DNA from: Erysipelotrichaceae bacterium UBA1783
GTDB taxonomy: Bacteria; Bacillota_I; Bacilli_A; Erysipelotrichales; Erysipelotrichaceae
Length of the DNA stretch: 5,628 nucleotides
NCBI GenBank assembly: GCA_002315205.1
Contig: DCGH01000062.1
Span: 1 to 5,628, forward strand
Direction of reading: 5' to 3'
Shown here piece by piece: positions 1 through 5,628 of the stretch (its first letter is position 1; each line of letters opens with the position of its first letter). The notes under the pieces are model-generated. The model had not been told where the DNA came from. It did no database searches and was given only the letters and a program-made list of their open reading frames with translations. Position numbers and translations under genes: made by a program.

Positions 1-413
1 AGATTATCGGTCAGATGGCAAAGGGACAAAATCCAGCCAGCCTATCTAGAGCAATGGATTATGTAAGTAATCTAGAGGGAACTAAAGAAATGATTATCAT
101 TATTGATGATGTTTTTGATAAACGTTCCACTGAACGAAGCGAAGTTATCAGCTATATCTATGATACTAATTATGAATGCTTAAATAATGACTCTATCAAA
201 AGAATTATTATTGGTGGTGTTAGAGCCTTAGATTATAAGGTTCGATTACTTTTTGCTGGTATCAATGAAGAAAAAATCTTTGCCTATGAAAAGGAAATGG
301 ATTGTCTGAACAGCTTACAATATGATGCAGATAAAATTATTATTGTAAATGATATGTATCAGGAAAAAACAAGATATCAGCTAATCGATGGAATAAAGGA
401 GGCTTTAAAATGA
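1..413 (+). CDS. murT: MurT-like Mur ligase, C-terminal part (copy 1, 5' end outside window)
   Basis: The frame is open from base 3, so the ATG at 15 is an internal Met and the gene begins upstream of the window. About 136 residues are visible. They match the C-terminal DUF1727-type domain of MurT, the Mur-ligase-like subunit that activates the D-Glu alpha-carboxyl of lipid II for amidation. Landmarks are a KGQNP segment, IIIIDDVFD, YIYD, and IIIGGVRALDYKVRLLFAG (the GG-R-x-x-D-x-x-x-R-x-x-x-AG signature). By eye about 36 of 85 aligned residues equal the second MurT at 3602-4969, so this is a diverged paralogue, not a recent copy. The loop before YIYD lacks the ADGxDxSW stretch I expect in canonical MurT. 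The stop overlaps the next start (ATGA at 410-413), which implies translational coupling. The ATPase half and zinc ribbon cannot be judged here. Confidence 0.85.
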   Translation, partial: IIGQMAKGQNPASLSRAMDYVSNLEGTKEMIIIIDDVFDKRSTERSEVISYIYDTNYECLNNDSIKRIIIGGVRALDYKVRLLFAGINEEKIFAYEKEMDCLNSLQYDADKIIIVNDMYQEKTRYQLIDGIKEALK

Positions 414-1108
414 TTTTAGAAGTACTTTATTCAAATGTCGCTAATTTATATGGCGATTTATACAATGTCAATTTCTTAAAAGAAACATTGCAGGATGAAT
501 TAGAGGTTATTTATACTGAATTCTATGATGAACCATATTTTGTTAATCATCATGTAGATATGGTGTATATGGGTTCAATGATAGAAAAATACCAGAAGAT
601 TGTTATTGAAAATCTTAAGCCATATAAGAAGAAATTAGAGCAGATGATTAATGAAAACATTGTTTTCTTAATTACAGGTAATGCAATGGAAATCTTTGGT
701 CAAAAAATTGATCAGATGGAAGCTCTAGGGATTTTTAATTACTTTACTGAAAGTGATTATTCACATCATCATAATTCTTGCTTCTTGGGAAAATTGAATG
801 ACCAGTATATTACAGGCTTTAAAAGCTGCTTTAGTTATACTAGCAATTGTAAAGAACCATTATTTGAAAAGGTAAAGGGTTACGGCTTTAAAGATGACAA
901 TAACCACGAGGGGGTAAAAAGAAACAATTTCTTTGCTACCTATCTGATTGGTCCTGTTTTAATTCAAAATCCATATTTTACACATTTGATTTTAAAGCTG
1001 TTAAATGTGGATAGAGAATTAAAGAATGAACAGTTTATATTGGATGCTTATAACTATCGAATTGATGAATATCTGACCTATTCCGATTTTAAAGAATTTA
1101 AGCATTAA
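410..1108 (+). CDS. gatD: GatD-like class I glutamine amidotransferase homologue, active site lost (copy 1)
   Basis: The protein has 232 residues, close to the usual GatD length (about 240). The start is set by AAAGGAGG at 395-402, seven bases before the ATG. Family landmarks are NLYGDLYN (residues 12-19), VYMG (52-55), the nucleophile-elbow region FLITGNAMEIFG (86-97), GFKSCF (136-141) and EGVKRNNFFATYLIGP (167-182). Canonical GatD frees ammonia from glutamine with a Cys in an ICGGYQxLG elbow and a His in GTYLHGP. In a gap-free alignment the Cys is Gly90 (Thr89 if shifted by one) and the His is Ile180. The GGG loop reads GSM at 55-57, and the GFENH segment reads GFKSC. The protein should therefore not hydrolyse glutamine. 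Intact frame, good RBS and coupling to the MurT partner argue against a pseudogene. It may be a structural partner of MurT or may bind another amine donor (inference). The family is clear; the function is not. Confidence 0.85.
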   Translation: MILEVLYSNVANLYGDLYNVNFLKETLQDELEVIYTEFYDEPYFVNHHVDMVYMGSMIEKYQKIVIENLKPYKKKLEQMINENIVFLITGNAMEIFGQKIDQMEALGIFNYFTESDYSHHHNSCFLGKLNDQYITGFKSCFSYTSNCKEPLFEKVKGYGFKDDNNHEGVKRNNFFATYLIGPVLIQNPYFTHLILKLLNVDRELKNEQFILDAYNYRIDEYLTYSDFKEFKH

Positions 1109-1144
1109 TACTGGAAAAAATTCACTTTTTAGACAAAATAAATA

Positions 1145-1172
1145 TTGTATTTGACGCCATCTATGATATAAT
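1145..1172 (+). promoter_or_regulatory. Candidate promoter of rpsB-tsf (extended -10)
   Basis: A perfect TATAAT lies at 1167-1172, preceded by TG at 1164-1165, giving the extended -10 form TGnTATAAT. A partial -35, TTGTAT at 1145-1150, sits 16 bases upstream. Transcription would begin near 1179, leaving a leader of about 130 nt before rpsB. TTGACG at 1151-1156 looks more like a -35 but is only 10 bases from TATAAT and has no good -10 at 17 bases. No convincing terminator separates copy 1 gatD from this promoter, so some read-through into rpsB is possible. Confidence 0.7.
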
Positions 1173-1184
1173 CATTTATGGCGT
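1154..1184. repeat. 7-bp inverted repeat around the rpsB -10 box
   Basis: ACGCCAT at 1154-1160 and its exact reverse complement ATGGCGT at 1178-1184 flank the -10 box symmetrically, 17 bases apart. The right arm falls at the predicted transcription start. It could be an operator, or the symmetry may be a by-product of the leader, because ACGCCAT recurs at 1207-1213 and TGGCGT at 1255-1260. Confidence 0.5.
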
Positions 1185-1310
1185 TTTATTACGCCCTTAT
1201 TTACACACGCCATGGATTCAGTTATTCCGTGCGCTATAGGCTTAAATACTAGCTTGGCGTTAATGCTGTTGGAAGTGGCGGAGGAAACAACGGAATGGAG
1301 GAAATTTAAA
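1179..1310 (+). promoter_or_regulatory. Structured 5' leader of rpsB, candidate S2 autoregulatory RNA
   Basis: Several exact complementarities lie in the predicted untranslated leader. GGCGT 1180-1184 can pair with ACGCC 1191-1195 as a 5-bp hairpin. TGGCGT 1179-1184 can instead pair with ACGCCA 1207-1212, and that same ACGCCA can pair with TGGCGT 1255-1260, so these states exclude each other. ATTCCGT 1224-1230 pairs perfectly with ACGGAAT 1290-1296, ending directly at the rpsB Shine-Dalgarno (1297). GCTA 1233-1236 and TAGC 1250-1253 could form a small hairpin inside that stem. Ribosomal protein operons are often controlled by binding of their own product to the leader, so S2 is the natural candidate ligand. 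That is inference, and I cannot match the leader to a named RNA family. Confidence 0.5.
1297..1304 (+). promoter_or_regulatory. Ribosome binding site that fixes the rpsB start
   Basis: GGAGGAAA begins 14 bases before the ATG at 1311, with nine bases between GGAGG and ATG. The in-frame ATG at 1212 has no such site, and the 33 extra residues it would add resemble nothing in S2. The RBS directly abuts the 3' arm (1290-1296) of a predicted leader stem. Confidence 0.85.
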
Positions 1311-2210
1311 ATGTCAGTTGTTACAATGCGTAAACTGCTAGAAGCAGGAGCTCATTTTGGTCACCAGACAAGAAGATGGGACCCAAGAATGAAGTCAAAC
1401 ATCTATTGTGCTAAGAATGGTACACATATCATCAATCTAGAGAAGACTTTAGTTGCTTTAGACGAAGCATATGTTGCTATGAAGGAAATCGCTGAAAGAG
1501 GCGGTAAGGTATTATTCGTTGGTACAAAGAAGCAGGCTCAGGCAATCGTTATGGAAGAAGCTTTAAGAAGTGGTTCTTTCTACGTAAACCAGAGATGGTT
1601 AGGTGGTACTTTAACTAACTACAGAACTATTCAGAAGAGAATCAGAAGATTAGTTGAAATTGAACAGATGGAAGAAACTGGTTCAATCAACAACTACACT
1701 AAGAAGGAAATCGCTTTAATCAGAAAAGAACAGGAAAAGTTAGAAAACTTCTTAGGTGGTATCAAGGAAATGAAGAAGCTACCAGATGCATTATTCATCG
1801 TTGATCCAAAGGAAGATTACAATGCTGTATTAGAAGCAAGAAAGTTAAATATCCCAGTATTCGGTATCTGTGATACTAACTGTGATCCAGCTTTATGTGA
1901 TTATGCTATTCCAGGTAATGATGATGCTGTTAAGGCTATCAAGTTATTATGTGGTGTTATGGCAGACTCAATCGCAGAAGCAAAGGGTGCTGTATTAGAA
2001 TTCGCATATACTGCAGATGAATTACCAGAAGTTGGTATGGAAGATGTTATCAAGGTTGTTGAAGAACAGGCAGCTGAAAATGAGAGAAAGAGAAAAGCTC
2101 GTTTTGAAGAAAAGAGACAGCAGCAGAACAGAAACAATCAGAGAAGACCATTTGTAAGAAGAGAAAAGCCTGCAACAGAAGAAGTTAAGGCAGAAGCAAA
2201 AGAGGACTAA
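1311..2210 (+). CDS. rpsB: 30S ribosomal protein S2
   Basis: S2 binds the head-body junction of the small ribosomal subunit. The protein has 299 residues and opens with the typical [19 protein letters not shown]. Further signatures are RRWDPRMK (21-28), the S2 motif [13 protein letters not shown] (91-103), the helical insert (about 105-155), PDALFIVDP (158-166), GICDTNCDP (185-193) and PGNDDA (201-206). It is longer than common bacterial S2 (about 230-260) because of a hydrophilic tail from about residue 255, rich in Arg, Lys, Gln, Asn and Glu. The start at 1311 is chosen from the strong GGAGG and the family N-terminus; the frame stays open upstream to 1212, which could mislead automatic annotation. 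It forms a unit with tsf six bases downstream. Strong use of AAG, AGA, TTA and CAG codons fits high expression. Confidence 0.97.
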
Positions 2211-2216
2211 TTAATT

Positions 2217-3110
2217 ATGGCAATCAGTGTACAGGACGTTAAGGATTTAAGAGAAAGAACAAGTGCTGGTATTGCAGACTGCAAGAAGGCATTAGAAGCT
2301 TGTGATGGAAACATGGAAAAGGCTATCGACTGGTTAAGAGAAAAGGGTATCGCTAAGTCAGCTTCAAAGGCAAGCAGAATTGCTGCTGAAGGTTTAGCAA
2401 ATATCACTGTTAACGGTAACGAAGCTGTTATCCTAGAAATTAACTCAGAGACAGACTTCTCAGCTAAGACTGACAAGTTCAAGGATATGGTAAAGGTTGT
2501 TGCTAATGCAATTTTAGCTAACAAGCCCGCTACTGTTGAAGAAGCTTTAGAGTTAGTAGTTGATGGTCAGAAGATTTCTGAAGTTATCGCAGCAGTATCA
2601 TTCGCTACTGGTGAAAAGATGACTTTAAGAAGATTCAACGTTGTTACTAAGACTGATGATCAGGTATTCGGTCAGTATGTTCACCATGATGGAAAGACTG
2701 CTGCTATCGTTACTTTAAACGGTTCTAAGGAAGACGTTGCTAAGTCAGTAGCAATGCAGGTTGCTTCAATGAAGCCACAGTATGTATCAAGAGACAAGAT
2801 GCCAGAAGAAATCGTTGCTCATGAAACTGAAGTTCAGACAACAATTGCTAAGGCAGATCCAAAGTTAGCTTCTAAGCCAGAACAGGCATTAGCTAAGATC
2901 ATCGAAGGTAAGGTTTCAAAGGCTTTACAGGATCTTTGCTTAAATGACCAGTTATATATCTTAGATGGCAAGACTAAGGTTTCTCAGGTATTAAAGGATG
3001 CTGGTATGTCAGCTGATTCATTTGTATTAATCGTAGTAGGTGAAGGTATCGAAAAGAAGAAGGACAACTGGGTTGCTGAAGTTGCTGCATCAATGGCAAA
3101 CGTTAAGTAA
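2217..3110 (+). CDS. tsf: Translation elongation factor Ts
   Basis: EF-Ts is the nucleotide exchange factor that releases GDP from EF-Tu in the cytoplasm. The protein has 297 residues, a normal length. The UBA-like N-terminal domain shows VQDVKDLRERTSAGIADCKKAL (residues 5-26). The EF-Tu contact motif follows as NSETDF (76-81), placing Asp80 and Phe81 where the E. coli protein has them. The core domain has YVHHDGKTAAIV (154-165), and the C-terminal part has IIEGKVSKALQDLCLNDQ (228-245). Small departures from consensus are TSAGIADC for TGAGMMDC and TDFSAKT for TDFVAKN. The ATG lies six bases after the rpsB stop; its RBS, AGAGGA at 2201-2206, lies inside the end of rpsB, so the two genes are probably co-transcribed and coupled. 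A terminator follows directly. pyrH and frr, often next in other bacteria, are absent here. Confidence 0.97.
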   Translation: MAISVQDVKDLRERTSAGIADCKKALEACDGNMEKAIDWLREKGIAKSASKASRIAAEGLANITVNGNEAVILEINSETDFSAKTDKFKDMVKVVANAILANKPATVEEALELVVDGQKISEVIAAVSFATGEKMTLRRFNVVTKTDDQVFGQYVHHDGKTAAIVTLNGSKEDVAKSVAMQVASMKPQYVSRDKMPEEIVAHETEVQTTIAKADPKLASKPEQALAKIIEGKVSKALQDLCLNDQLYILDGKTKVSQVLKDAGMSADSFVLIVVGEGIEKKKDNWVAEVAASMANVK

Positions 3111-3128
3111 TTAATTTTCAACTTACAT

Positions 3129-3158
3129 AAAAAACCTATCTGAACTGATAGGTTTTTT
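3129..3158. terminator. Bidirectional intrinsic terminator between tsf and ssb
   Basis: AAAACCTATC (3131-3140) and GATAGGTTTT (3147-3156) form a perfect 10-bp stem with a TGAACT loop, extendable by two A-T pairs to 3129-3158. On the plus strand the stem runs into seven T (3153-3159), ending the rpsB-tsf transcript. On the minus strand the A-run at 3129-3134 becomes a U-tract, so the same hairpin can end the convergent ssb transcript, whose stop codon is at 3165-3167. Confidence 0.92.
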
Positions 3159-3164
3159 TCTTTG

Positions 3165-3470
3165 TTATCCAACATCAATTTCTTCATTTAAATAGACCAG
3201 TTTTTCTGCAATCACAATACAAAGGTTATCTCTGGTTTCTTCAATTCTTCCTTTAATTGCTATGACACTACCAATTGGATACTTCTCATCAAGCATATCA
3301 CCAACACCACGAAATACTTTGACAATAACGTGGTCCTTCTGCATAGAACCATCAGAATTCCAATAGGGCCTTTGAATCTCTAAAATCATTCTTGCATAAT
3401 GAATATCATCATTTTCTGCAACAAATGTATTGGAATGCTTGATGCCTACTAAAACAATCGAATTAAGCAT
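3165..3470 (-). CDS. ssb: Short single-stranded DNA-binding protein (OB fold), no acidic tail
   Basis: SSB proteins coat exposed single-stranded DNA in replication, repair and recombination. The protein has 101 residues from the chosen start. MLNSIVLVGI (1-10) is the typical first OB strand, YARMILEIQRP (25-35) the second, HVIVKVFRG (47-55) the third, and IGSVIAIKGRIEE (66-78) with CIVIAEKLVYL (84-94) the last strands. It stops just after the fold: the flexible linker and acidic DDDIPF-like tail that bring partner proteins to ordinary SSB (about 160-180 residues) are missing. One Trp (37) is present and the usual DW/EW before strand three is DH, so DNA contacts may differ. It is therefore probably an accessory SSB, with the main one elsewhere. 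It is convergent with tsf and divergent from the second murT. The SSB-like family is well supported; the exact role is inferred. Confidence 0.82.
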   Translation of the reverse strand: MLNSIVLVGIKHSNTFVAENDDIHYARMILEIQRPYWNSDGSMQKDHVIVKVFRGVGDMLDEKYPIGSVIAIKGRIEETRDNLCIVIAEKLVYLNEEIDVG

Positions 3471-3475
3471 ATAAT

Positions 3476-3482
3476 CTCCTTT
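3476..3482 (-). promoter_or_regulatory. Ribosome binding site that fixes the ssb start
   Basis: On the minus strand AAAGGAG stands five bases before the ATG at 3470-3468, directing translation to MLNSIVLVG, the usual SSB N-terminus. An in-frame ATG at 3485-3483 overlaps the site itself and cannot use it, so the five-residue-longer form is unlikely. Confidence 0.85.
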
Positions 3483-3541
3483 CATTAAATAATAGAAGGG
3501 AAAATTTTGTATTCCTTATACTCGTGAAAAAATTATTCAAA

Positions 3542-3570
3542 TTGTATTAAAGTATTATTTCCTTTATAAT
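3542..3570 (+). promoter_or_regulatory. Promoter of the second murT-gatD pair
   Basis: TTGTAT at 3542-3547 and a perfect TATAAT at 3565-3570 are separated by the optimal 17 bases; transcription should begin near 3577. Just upstream is an A/T-rich stretch with GAAAAAATT (3526-3534) that could act as an UP element. The -35 hexamer TTGTAT is the same as the candidate one before rpsB. The leader is short, about 25 nt, and I see no structure in it. Confidence 0.75.
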
Positions 3571-3601
3571 TAATAATTGAAGTCAGGAAAGAAGAATTAA
3601 T

Positions 3602-4969
3602 ATGGGAAAATTAAGATTTTATTTTACCGTGATTATAACAAAGCTAATTATTAAATTTATGCATCTTGTAGGAAGAAACGCAACAGATTTCCCTGGAAGA
3701 ATTGCCTTAAAGCTATGCCCAGATATTTTAGGAAGAATAACTCCGCCTAAGAAGGTTATCGCAATAACTGGAACCAATGGTAAGACTAGCACAAACAACA
3801 TTACGATGTCAGTGCTAAAGCATGCCGGTTATTCAGTCATTGAGAATTCATTTGGTGGAAATATCAATTCGGGTATTGCATCCATATTACTAACACATAG
3901 TGACTGGAAAGGTGTATGTCATCAAGATGTTGCCTGCTTAGAAATAGATGAAAGAAGCGCTGTAAGAGTATATCCTTATTTAAAACCGGATTATATGCTT
4001 GTCACAAACCTTCAGAGAGACTCTATGATGAGAAATGCTCATGTAGAGTATATTTATAGTATCTTAGATCAATACATCCCAGAAAGCACGAAAATGATTT
4101 TGAATGGTGATGATCTGATTTCATCTCAATTAGGAAAAAAGAGAGCATCACAAACCTTCTTCAGATTTGCTTTGCAGGAAAATGAAATCTGTCGTGATAA
4201 TATTATTAAGGATATTACTGTCTGTCCAAAATGTGGTAGTGAAATCACCTGGAACTTTGTCAGAAATCATTCTATTGGTCAGGGTCATTGTCCAAATTGT
4301 GATTTTGGTTCACCAGCAGCAAAGTATGTTTTAGAAACAATTAAGGATGGCAAATGTACTATCGCATATGATGGAATCAAGGAAGAGTTCCCAGTAGTAG
4401 GATATAGAACATCGGATTATTACAACACCTGTGCATGTATCGCTTTATTAAAGGAATTTGGCTTGACATCAAAGCAGATTGCTGACGGATTAGCAGCTGC
4501 TATCGTTCCAACAAGCAGATATCAAGAGGTAGTAATCAATGGAAAGAGAATCATTTCCATTCTTTCTAAGGGTATGAATGCGATTGCCTGTTCAAATTCA
4601 TGTGATGTTGTCAGCAGAGATCCAAAGAAAAAAGCAGTCATTATGTTTTTAGATGATGTCAATGATGCTAAAAAATCTAGTGAAATGGTTAACTGGATTT
4701 ATGATGTAGACTTTGAATTCTTAAAGGATGAAAACATTACCCAGATTATTTATGGTGGCAAGCGTCATGTCGATTATCATATTCGTTTTGCTTTAGCGGG
4801 TATTGATGAAGAAAAGCTGACATGTATTGAAAGTGATGTGAAGACACCAGAGTATTTAGATGTAGAGGCATGTGAAAATATTTATATTCTATTCGATATG
4901 TATTCAGTTGCTGAATACAAGCAGATTCTTGCTAAGGTTAAAGAAAAATGTGAAAGGTTAGGTAAATAA
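3602..4969 (+). CDS. murT: MurT-like lipid II ligase subunit (copy 2, complete)
   Basis: The protein has 455 residues, normal for MurT (about 440-450). Canonical MurT uses ATP to activate the D-Glu alpha-carboxyl of lipid II at the inner membrane face so that GatD-derived ammonia can form D-isoglutamine. Domains in order: N-terminal segment with GRNATDFPGRIALK (24-37); Mur-ligase ATPase domain with P-loop TGTNGKTST (56-64), NSFGGNINSGIA (82-93), EIDE (114-117) and NLQRD (136-140); a zinc ribbon CPKC (208-211) plus CPNC (230-233); SRYQE (305-309); and a C-terminal DUF1727-type domain with WIYDVDFEFL (365-374) and IIYGGKRHVDY (382-392). All four ribbon cysteines and the P-loop Lys61 are intact, so ATP use is likely. 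The loop before WIYD (DDVNDAKKSSEMVN, 351-364) lacks the ADGxD acidic stretch where I place the Asp that canonical MurT lends to the GatD triad. AGGAAAG at 3585-3591 is the RBS. gatD copy 2 follows after one base. Confidence 0.92.
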   Translation: MGKLRFYFTVIITKLIIKFMHLVGRNATDFPGRIALKLCPDILGRITPPKKVIAITGTNGKTSTNNITMSVLKHAGYSVIENSFGGNINSGIASILLTHSDWKGVCHQDVACLEIDERSAVRVYPYLKPDYMLVTNLQRDSMMRNAHVEYIYSILDQYIPESTKMILNGDDLISSQLGKKRASQTFFRFALQENEICRDNIIKDITVCPKCGSEITWNFVRNHSIGQGHCPNCDFGSPAAKYVLETIKDGKCTIAYDGIKEEFPVVGYRTSDYYNTCACIALLKEFGLTSKQIADGLAAAIVPTSRYQEVVINGKRIISILSKGMNAIACSNSCDVVSRDPKKKAVIMFLDDVNDAKKSSEMVNWIYDVDFEFLKDENITQIIYGGKRHVDYHIRFALAGIDEEKLTCIESDVKTPEYLDVEACENIYILFDMYSVAEYKQILAKVKEKCERLGK

Positions 4970-4970
4970 T

Positions 4971-5628
4971 ATGGTAGTTGAAATATTATATCCAAAGCTA
5001 TGTAACCTTTTTGGAGATCGTGGTAATGTCATCTATTTAAAGAAATGCTTACCAGAAGCAACCTTTATTGAAACAGAATTAAATGATGTGCCTTACTTTG
5101 TAAATCACAAAGTTGATTTGATTTATTTAGGACCATCAACTGAAAGTGCTCAAGAAAAATATGTTGAACGTTTGAGTAAATATAGAGATTGTCTGGAAGA
5201 ATTAATTAATAATGGAACCTATTTTTTATTAACAGGTAATGCCGTTGAAGTTTTTGGTAAAGAAGTTACCGATAAAAATGGGGTATGCCTAAAAGGCTTA
5301 GGTTTAGTTGATTTATCAGCTGAAAGAGATTATTTTGGCAGAAAGAACACCATCTATTTAGGTAAATATCATGATTATGAGGTAGTTGGTTTTAAGAGCC
5401 AGTTCACTTTAGCTACTTCTGATGAACAACCATTATTTACTAATGAAAAAGGTTTTGGATTAAATCTTCAATGTCCAACAGAGGGAATCAGGAAAAATAA
5501 TCTGATTGCAACCTATCTGTTAGGACCAATGCTGGTTTTAAATCCTTTATTTACAGAGGAGCTACTAAAGCAGTTAGGTGTCCAATCACCAAAGGTTGCA
5601 CTAGATGAATTAACTATGGAAGCTTATA
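4971..5628 (+). CDS. gatD: GatD-like glutamine amidotransferase homologue, active site lost (copy 2, 3' end outside window)
   Basis: This gene runs off the right edge with 219 codons visible, most of a GatD (about 240). Landmarks are NLFGDRGN (12-19), IYLGPSTESAQ (51-61, where GatD has a GGG-x-D-x-x-Q loop), the elbow region FLLTGNAVEVFG (85-96), GLGLVD (109-114), GFKSQF (140-145) and EGIRKNNLIATYLLGP (171-186). Compared without gaps to ICGGYQxLG and GTYLHGP, the nucleophile Cys is Gly89 (Thr88 if shifted by one) and the catalytic His is Leu184. The GGG loop is GPS, and GFENH is GFKSQ. It retains GDRGN better than copy 1, which reads GDLYN. One base separates it from the murT stop, so the two are surely co-transcribed; the RBS is weak (GAAAGG 4952-4957, 13 bases away), suggesting reliance on coupled translation. 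Glutaminase activity is not expected. A scaffold or alternative-amine role with MurT is inference. Confidence 0.85.
   Translation, partial: MVVEILYPKLCNLFGDRGNVIYLKKCLPEATFIETELNDVPYFVNHKVDLIYLGPSTESAQEKYVERLSKYRDCLEELINNGTYFLLTGNAVEVFGKEVTDKNGVCLKGLGLVDLSAERDYFGRKNTIYLGKYHDYEVVGFKSQFTLATSDEQPLFTNEKGFGLNLQCPTEGIRKNNLIATYLLGPMLVLNPLFTEELLKQLGVQSPKVALDELTMEAY

Follow-up and report, generated by a model that had tools for sequence, protein, structure and literature searches.

A widespread subfamily of MurT/GatD pairs with a disarmed glutaminase subunit: a possible glutamine-free ligase acting on D-Glu

The isoglutaminyl synthase MurT/GatD, which is essential in several pathogens and has been studied as a drug target, is known for a chemistry that uses glutamine (PMC6085368). 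The window analysed here, a stretch of 5,628 nucleotides from Erysipelotrichaceae bacterium UBA1783 (assembly GCA_002315205.1, contig DCGH01000062.1, positions 1 to 5,628), is predicted to encode two tandem MurT/GatD copies in which GatD, the glutaminase subunit, is disarmed. An earlier note on this DNA had described the second copy as an intact MurT beside a partner unable to free ammonia; the observation is correct, and it is larger than was supposed, as it extends to a whole subfamily. Judged from alignments and a tree, the GatDs without the catalytic Cys are a distinct, old and widespread subfamily and not a product of decay; we call their usual form TGN-type, after the motif at the former nucleophile elbow. 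We hypothesize, with a probability of about 0.42, that the TGN-type MurT/GatD is a glutamine-free ligase that attaches an amino acid or other amine to D-Glu.

MurT copy 2 (455 amino acids (aa); positions 3602..4969, plus strand) is complete and its ligase residues are intact. The Mur ligase middle domain (PF08245) and the MurT_C domain (PF08353) score 30.9 and 77.1 bits, over Pfam cut-offs of 24 and 25, respectively. The P-loop TGTNGKTST (aa 56-64; 3767..3793, plus strand) includes G57, N59, G60, K61 and T62, all invariant in an alignment of 27 MurTs, as are the acceptor Asn N87, the Mg/Asp-Glu residues E114, D116 and E117, and the four Cys residues of the zinc ribbon (C208, C211, C230 and C233; 4223..4300, plus strand; 27/27). 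The claim that this copy keeps its P-loop and Cys4 ribbon is thus borne out, with the Mg and acceptor residues intact as well, and the kept residues support the further claim that MurT should still activate the D-Glu carboxyl; among them are K61, N87, D116/E117, D140 and R144, for which the corresponding pneumococcal mutants have at most 13% activity. GatD copy 2 (4971..5627, plus strand; 219 of its 234 aa lie inside the window) retains the glutamine amidotransferase fold (PF07685, class I GATase family) but has lost the glutaminase residues. The nucleophile elbow ICGGYQ is replaced by TGNAVE (aa 88-93; 5232..5249, plus strand), in which G89 aligns with S. aureus C94, L184 (5520..5522, plus strand) stands at the position of the catalytic His189, and GPS is found where Cys-type GatDs have the GGG oxyanion loop. 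R124 (5340..5342, plus strand), aligned with the glutamine-capturing R128 of S. aureus GatD and R142 of S. pneumoniae GatD, is kept, and in MurT copy 2 the Asp completing the GatD triad, D349 in S. aureus and D355 in S. pneumoniae, is replaced by M362. Copy 1 consists of the C-terminal part of a MurT (136 aa, the 5' end lying beyond the window; 3..413, plus strand; MurT_C PF08353, 1e-19), 36% identical to the matching part of MurT copy 2, and of a GatD of 232 aa (410..1108, plus strand), 40% identical to GatD copy 2, in which the glutaminase residues are likewise gone (TGNAME, TYLIGP); in the two window GatDs the catalytic Cys has become Gly and the catalytic His Leu or Ile. The NCBIfam equivalog cut-offs of NF045635 and NF045636 are not reached (174.9 of 800 bits and 47.0 of 400 bits, GatD copy 2 being scanned minus its last 15 aa).

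A protein search with GatD copy 2 returned 1,404 relatives at E <= 0.001, and TGN was present in 119/120 of the matches listed. Among 229 distinct GatDs aligned from the fetched loci, the 42 Cys-type proteins all have the catalytic His, the GGG oxyanion loop and R124, whereas the His is found in none of the 187 Cys-less proteins. In the latter the Cys position is occupied by Gly (182), Asn (3) or Tyr (2), the commonest sequences at the oxyanion-loop position are GPM, GSG and GSM, and the elbow has the signature TGN[A/S]xE; T88 is kept in 178/187, N90 in 175/187 and E58 in 182/187, position 93 is Glu in 162/187 and Asp in 21, and the glutamine-capturing R124 is retained in 177/187. The GatD of one genome (G612), identical to P0243 from 'Eubacteriaceae bacterium', has a TGT variant. 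In a tree of 114 concatenated pairs (a quick search under LG+G4, with no bootstrap and with TGN pairs omitted where GatD was at least 66% identical to a chosen one), one branch with an SH-aLRT value of 100 splits 100 Cys-less pairs from 14 Cys pairs. Six further GatDs were read, three of them Cys-type with the His and three Cys-less, one of which, the second copy in the Clostridia genome G490, keeps the His. Apart from that copy, the catalytic Cys and His appear to have been lost together, the Arg to have mostly stayed and new acidic residues to have become fixed. Since Cys, His and oxyanion loop are all lost, such a GatD should be unable to form the glutamine thioester; glutamine hydrolysis is very probably gone, in agreement with the earlier claim that the partner cannot free ammonia, and glutamine is very probably not the donor. 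No description of a Cys-less GatD was found in the literature, in a search that reached few subscription papers.

The second GatD of G490 (L465, G490:C41), encoded besides a Cys-type GatD (L464, G490:C7), has the Cys alone changed to Gly (IGGGQ) and keeps the His, Gln and Arg, a plain Cys-to-Gly change outside the TGN type that mirrors in nature the S. aureus C94G mutant discussed below. G490 is the only genome in which both kinds of GatD were found, the second match of the Cys-type genome G163 lying outside the reading.

At the GatD interface, Cys-paired MurTs have a loop of the form RDQxDRxGE and TGN-paired MurTs one of the form RD[S/Q]xxRNxH; in MurT copy 2 it is RDSMMRNAH (aa 139-147; 4016..4042, plus strand), where N145 and H147 carry the TGN-type signature. 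After merging 218 pairs to 185 where the C-terminal 300 residues were identical (171 TGN-paired, 14 Cys-paired), N145 was present in 164/171 and H147 in 147/171 of the TGN-paired MurTs, with Glu at position 147 in 14/14 of the Cys-paired ones; the Asp completing the GatD triad was present in 14/14 Cys-paired versus 24/171 TGN-paired MurTs. MurT differs from the other Mur ligases in lacking the Mg-binding His that they carry in this loop (PMC6085368); the TGN-paired MurT has gained a loop His, but at the far end of the loop. The equivalents of pneumococcal D136 and R140, the Ala mutants of which have 10% and 13% activity, respectively (PMC6085368), are kept as D140 and R144.

A scan of named sequences matched 311 stretches, 246 of them encoding a relative, and the 80 loci kept from it (the named loci) come, by title, nearly all from uncultured Clostridia and Erysipelotrichia; strains among them are Acutalibacter sp. 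1XD8-33, Neglectibacter timonensis and Scatolibacter rhodanostii. In the order of G003, which the titles of its members identify as Erysipelotrichales, 145/244 sampled genomes gave a GatD of any kind; the figure was 43/197 in the order of G011 and 204/391 in the class of G011. MurT_C matched once in 15 and twice in 5 of 20 TGN-type genomes chosen from the named loci, and 12 Erysipelotrichales genomes hold two or three GatDs, all Cys-less among those listed and read.

The suggestion that such a pair attaches the first bridge amino acid had been argued from Erysipelothrix, with its group B wall, and a correlation of the TGN type with wall type had been predicted. A bridge of group B begins at the carboxyl of D-Glu and thus calls for a ligase that activates a carboxylate; if residue 3 no longer serves in cross-linking, the diamino-acid loop of MurE and the FemAB bridges would be expected to disappear. 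The wall of E. rhusiopathiae is of type B1-delta with (L-Ala)-D-Glu-Gly-L-Lys, and that of Holdemania filiformis of type B1-delta with (L-Ala)-D-Glu-L-Asp-L-Lys (PMC4062643). Within Erysipelotrichales the raw association is strong: the MurE motif [DE][DN]PR is lost in 17/25 TGN-type versus 2/30 Cys-type genomes (Fisher p 1.9e-6) and 14/45 versus 32/35 have FemAB (p 5.1e-8; GatD type read from residues in all 80 genomes), 16 of the 17 motif-less TGN-type genomes also being without a FemAB match and 4 of the 8 motif-bearing ones having FemAB. The MurE motif was counted by pattern in an aligned 11-residue window, DDPS or HNPK being scored as lost; these wall-gene counts left out TGN-type genomes outside Erysipelotrichales (G004, G011, G014 and G016), 11 GatD-less Oscillospirales with MurE (a twelfth, G271, had no MurE), second MurE copies and G221 (no MurE match), and two MurEs of 966 aa were shortened to 500 aa. 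However, the MurE tree holds only four independent TGN/Cys contrasts, neither association being significant in a sign test (median p 1 and 0.625), and the associations are phylogenetically confounded. A lineage-level link between TGN type and wall change within Erysipelotrichales is possible.

The Erysipelothrix argument itself fails as stated. In the genus of G131, 11/13 genomes have no GatD match and 2 have the TGN type. Each of the 11 gives five Mur-ligase-domain matches (G131 gives six), and MurT is absent from them, the fifth and weakest match being FolC-like, without the CxxC ribbon and reaching 14 to 24 bits against the MurT profile. This genus is probably Erysipelothrix-like, judged partly from mur-gene spacing: murD to murC is 24.5 kb in both G088 and G093, murC to murF 52.7 and 50.7 kb, and murF to murE 360 and 328 kb (genes named from sequence), and in E. 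rhusiopathiae 319078 the same order is spaced by 26, 55 and 331 locus-tag steps, tags being assumed to rise by 5 per gene (PMC9637936, Table 5). Neither MurT nor GatD is named in that E. rhusiopathiae paper (0 occurrences; PMC9637936). Of 29 Erysipelotrichales genomes that gave no GatD match, 13 have also lost the MurE motif, and 11 of these 13 belong to this genus. All 13 MurEs of the genus (L387-L399) have HDNR (11) or QDRR (2) where D[DN]PR would stand, in agreement with the description of E. rhusiopathiae MurE as Ala-adding (PMC9637936). Outside Erysipelotrichales, MurE has DNPR in 28/30 TGN-type genomes of the named loci (29 titled Clostridia or a subgroup), and in the order of G011 in 18/25 Cys-less and 4/4 Cys-type genomes. 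With the Erysipelothrix-like genus mostly pair-less and DNPR kept in most TGN-type Clostridia, the group B wall as a general explanation is rejected as stated; group B walls very probably need no such pair, most carriers do not resemble group B, and the Erysipelothrix wall is no evidence for a ligase using an amine.

Several other MurE proteins deserve mention. The nearest tree relatives of the window pair, G001 and G007, have the unusual motifs EDDHWE and EDNHWE and gave no FemAB match. Three genomes of the Oscillospirales order with a Cys-less GatD (G419, G368 and G441) have DNPA, which we take to be the form of the lysine-type MurE of S. aureus. In the TGN-type genomes G003 and G002 (L228 and L231) MurE lies within an open reading frame (ORF) of 966 aa, longer than one ligase, and may be fused to a second Mur ligase. 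In two further TGN-type genomes (G235:C21 and G129:C29) a second MurE-like protein is encoded within a few kb of the first, and its match starts at profile position 133; these second proteins are candidates for extra residue-adding ligases. MurE-like proteins of about 480 aa in G164, G260, G002, G136 and G225 score 208-232 bits, below the family cut-off, and in G225 such a protein is the best match.

In the mechanism that we propose for the TGN-type pairs, MurT would bind ATP and phosphorylate the D-Glu alpha-carboxyl of the lipid-linked wall precursor, which is what canonical MurT is thought to do and what its kept residues suggest here. GatD, its sequence lacking the means for glutamine thioester chemistry, would have been retained as a partner whose pocket is conserved in an altered shape. 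A small amine not derived from glutamine may then attack the acyl phosphate and be joined to D-Glu; this step is the least certain, and the amine would most likely be an amino acid or a polyamine held between MurT and the former GatD pocket. The conserved pocket, the changed MurT loop and the paralogues speak for a different and larger amine than ammonia, and in Erysipelotrichales the disappearance of FemAB and of the MurE motif is a hint of an amino acid or polyamine. Substrates would differ between the two diverged tandem copies, or the copies would add residues successively. A fuller version is more speculative, and we put it forward tentatively: the pairs would place an amino acid or polyamine on the D-Glu alpha-carboxyl of Gram-positive walls, with the old glutaminase as the acceptor-binding half, and paralogous pairs would extend the branch stepwise. 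Such an extension would run residue by residue from the carboxyl end of the branch; FemX-type enzymes, which transfer from aminoacyl-tRNA to an amine, provide no extension from a carboxyl end. That amines occur on the D-Glu alpha-carboxyl in nature is clear from the cadaverine and putrescine of Negativicutes (PMC10628300), but nothing here shows it for this pair. The core of the earlier proposal, an activated D-Glu and an amine not drawn from glutamine, is reasonable.

A number of observations weigh against a ligase for a larger amine. The amine or amino acid is a prediction only, and an amino acid would be unable to pass an ammonia channel and would need another entry. The prevalence of DNPR in MurE outside Erysipelotrichales gives no sign of a differently built wall, and the few independent contrasts within the order do not help. 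The loop residues altered in TGN-type MurT correspond to pneumococcal D139 and E143, the Ala mutants of which retain 71% and 102% activity (PMC6085368), so the nucleophile cannot be told from the loop alone. Nor is the pocket fixed in every copy: in GatD copy 1 the glutamine-capturing Arg is replaced by His, and two of the six further GatDs are divergent, Cys-less and without TGN motif or Arg. The latter are second GatD-like proteins (L450, G745:C85; L451, G828:C7) with a [VI]GTxA elbow and Thr for the Arg, in Clostridia genomes that also have a TGN-type GatD. Above all, the same Cys-to-Gly change leaves ammonia-dependent amidation in place in S. aureus, where MurT with GatD C94G amidated lipid II with NH3 or NH4Cl at pH 8.5, GatD being required, and glutamine-dependent activity was abolished or severely cut by each of C94G, C94S and MurT D349N (PMC3266927); the residue equivalent to the last is less critical in S. 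pneumoniae, MurT D355A having 28% activity (PMC6085368). The pair might therefore be an ammonia-dependent D-isoglutamine synthase, MurT amidating with free NH3 or NH4+ and GatD being kept as a structural or allosteric partner. We would regard the C94G result as the strongest rival to the amine proposed in the earlier note, which had itself allowed for free ammonia and for this part has an experimental precedent. A kept glutaminase-like partner in an ammonia-using enzyme also has a precedent in CPS1. The MurT residues with the largest effect on amidation are retained, and free ammonia fits both the genomes with a MurE of the meso-diaminopimelate type (DNPR) and the anaerobic gut and digester sources given in titles. 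Yet the S. aureus C94G pair makes no use of NH3 at pH 7.5 (PMC3266927), a GatD serving as a scaffold has no need of R124, E58, N90 and E93, and the presence of two or three copies in one genome is difficult to account for; we consider ammonia a real possibility, short of an even chance.

The remaining alternatives are less probable than a ligase for either amine. The retention of R124, the Arg that captures glutamine in the GatDs of S. aureus and S. pneumoniae according to the structure papers (PMC6085368), would suit a sensor, in which GatD binds glutamine or another amino acid and only switches MurT on, the ammonia coming from elsewhere; replacement of the conserved elbow Gln by E93, loss of the oxyanion loop and the His of GatD copy 1 make this unlikely. 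It is similarly improbable that the pair acts on something besides the D-Glu of lipid II, as its neighbours might suggest (copy 2 adjoins tsf, and in the related loci L001 and L007 the pair stands beside genes reading as thyA and folA), for the acceptor Asn N87 is kept, the best structural matches are to MurT, and the neighbours of the pair in one set of loci are a PP2C-type phosphatase and a PknB-like kinase. The loss of catalytic residues could finally reflect a duplicate decaying without function, but 187 distinct proteins share the new conserved motif and the pair supplies the sole MurT_C match in 15/20 genomes examined, so that decay is very improbable.

As to the genes around the pair, the thyA and folA readings in L001 and L007 were named from the start of the sequence only. 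In 120 loci the genes sharing the locus of the pair include rlmN-like genes (38), PP2C-type phosphatases (35) and PknB-type kinases (35), named from sequence. A short SSB-like ORF lies between tsf and the second murT (window 3165-3485, minus strand; NF005242, 31.7 bits against a cut-off of 189), and a similar-looking minus-strand ORF is found upstream of the MurT/GatD pair in L001 and L007.

It is thus a large and old branch in gut Clostridia and Erysipelotrichia that has kept the pair and discarded the glutaminase, a natural test case of a glutamine amidotransferase changing its donor. Annotation of these proteins as isoglutaminyl synthase by homology is doubtful, and in most of the TGN-type genomes examined they include the only MurT; the question also bears on the wall fragments shed by the carriers. 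If an amino acid or amine is attached, the pairs would provide genes for a wall chemistry without named genes in the literature passages and listings covered.

Among known systems, the TGN-type pairs resemble MurT/GatD of S. aureus, S. pneumoniae and S. pyogenes in two-gene order, MurT domains, P-loop, Mg and acceptor residues, Cys4 ribbon and GatD fold. They differ from this isoglutaminyl synthase in the absence of the glutaminase Cys, His and oxyanion loop, in the TGN[A/S]xE elbow and RD[S/Q]xxRNxH loop, in not keeping D349 and in scores far under the NCBIfam cut-offs. MurC, MurD, MurE and MurF and the archaeal pseudomurein peptide ligases are unlike them in the N-terminal UDP-binding domain (MurC-F) and in a loop His placed elsewhere, and to our knowledge have no GatD partner. 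The Negativicutes wall displays the chemistry expected of an amine-using MurT, a likeness in product chemistry alone. S. aureus MurT with the engineered GatD C94G shares the Cys-to-Gly change and shows that such a pair can work with NH3 only, but it is a laboratory mutant in which the Cys alone was altered, unlike the TGN-type pairs.
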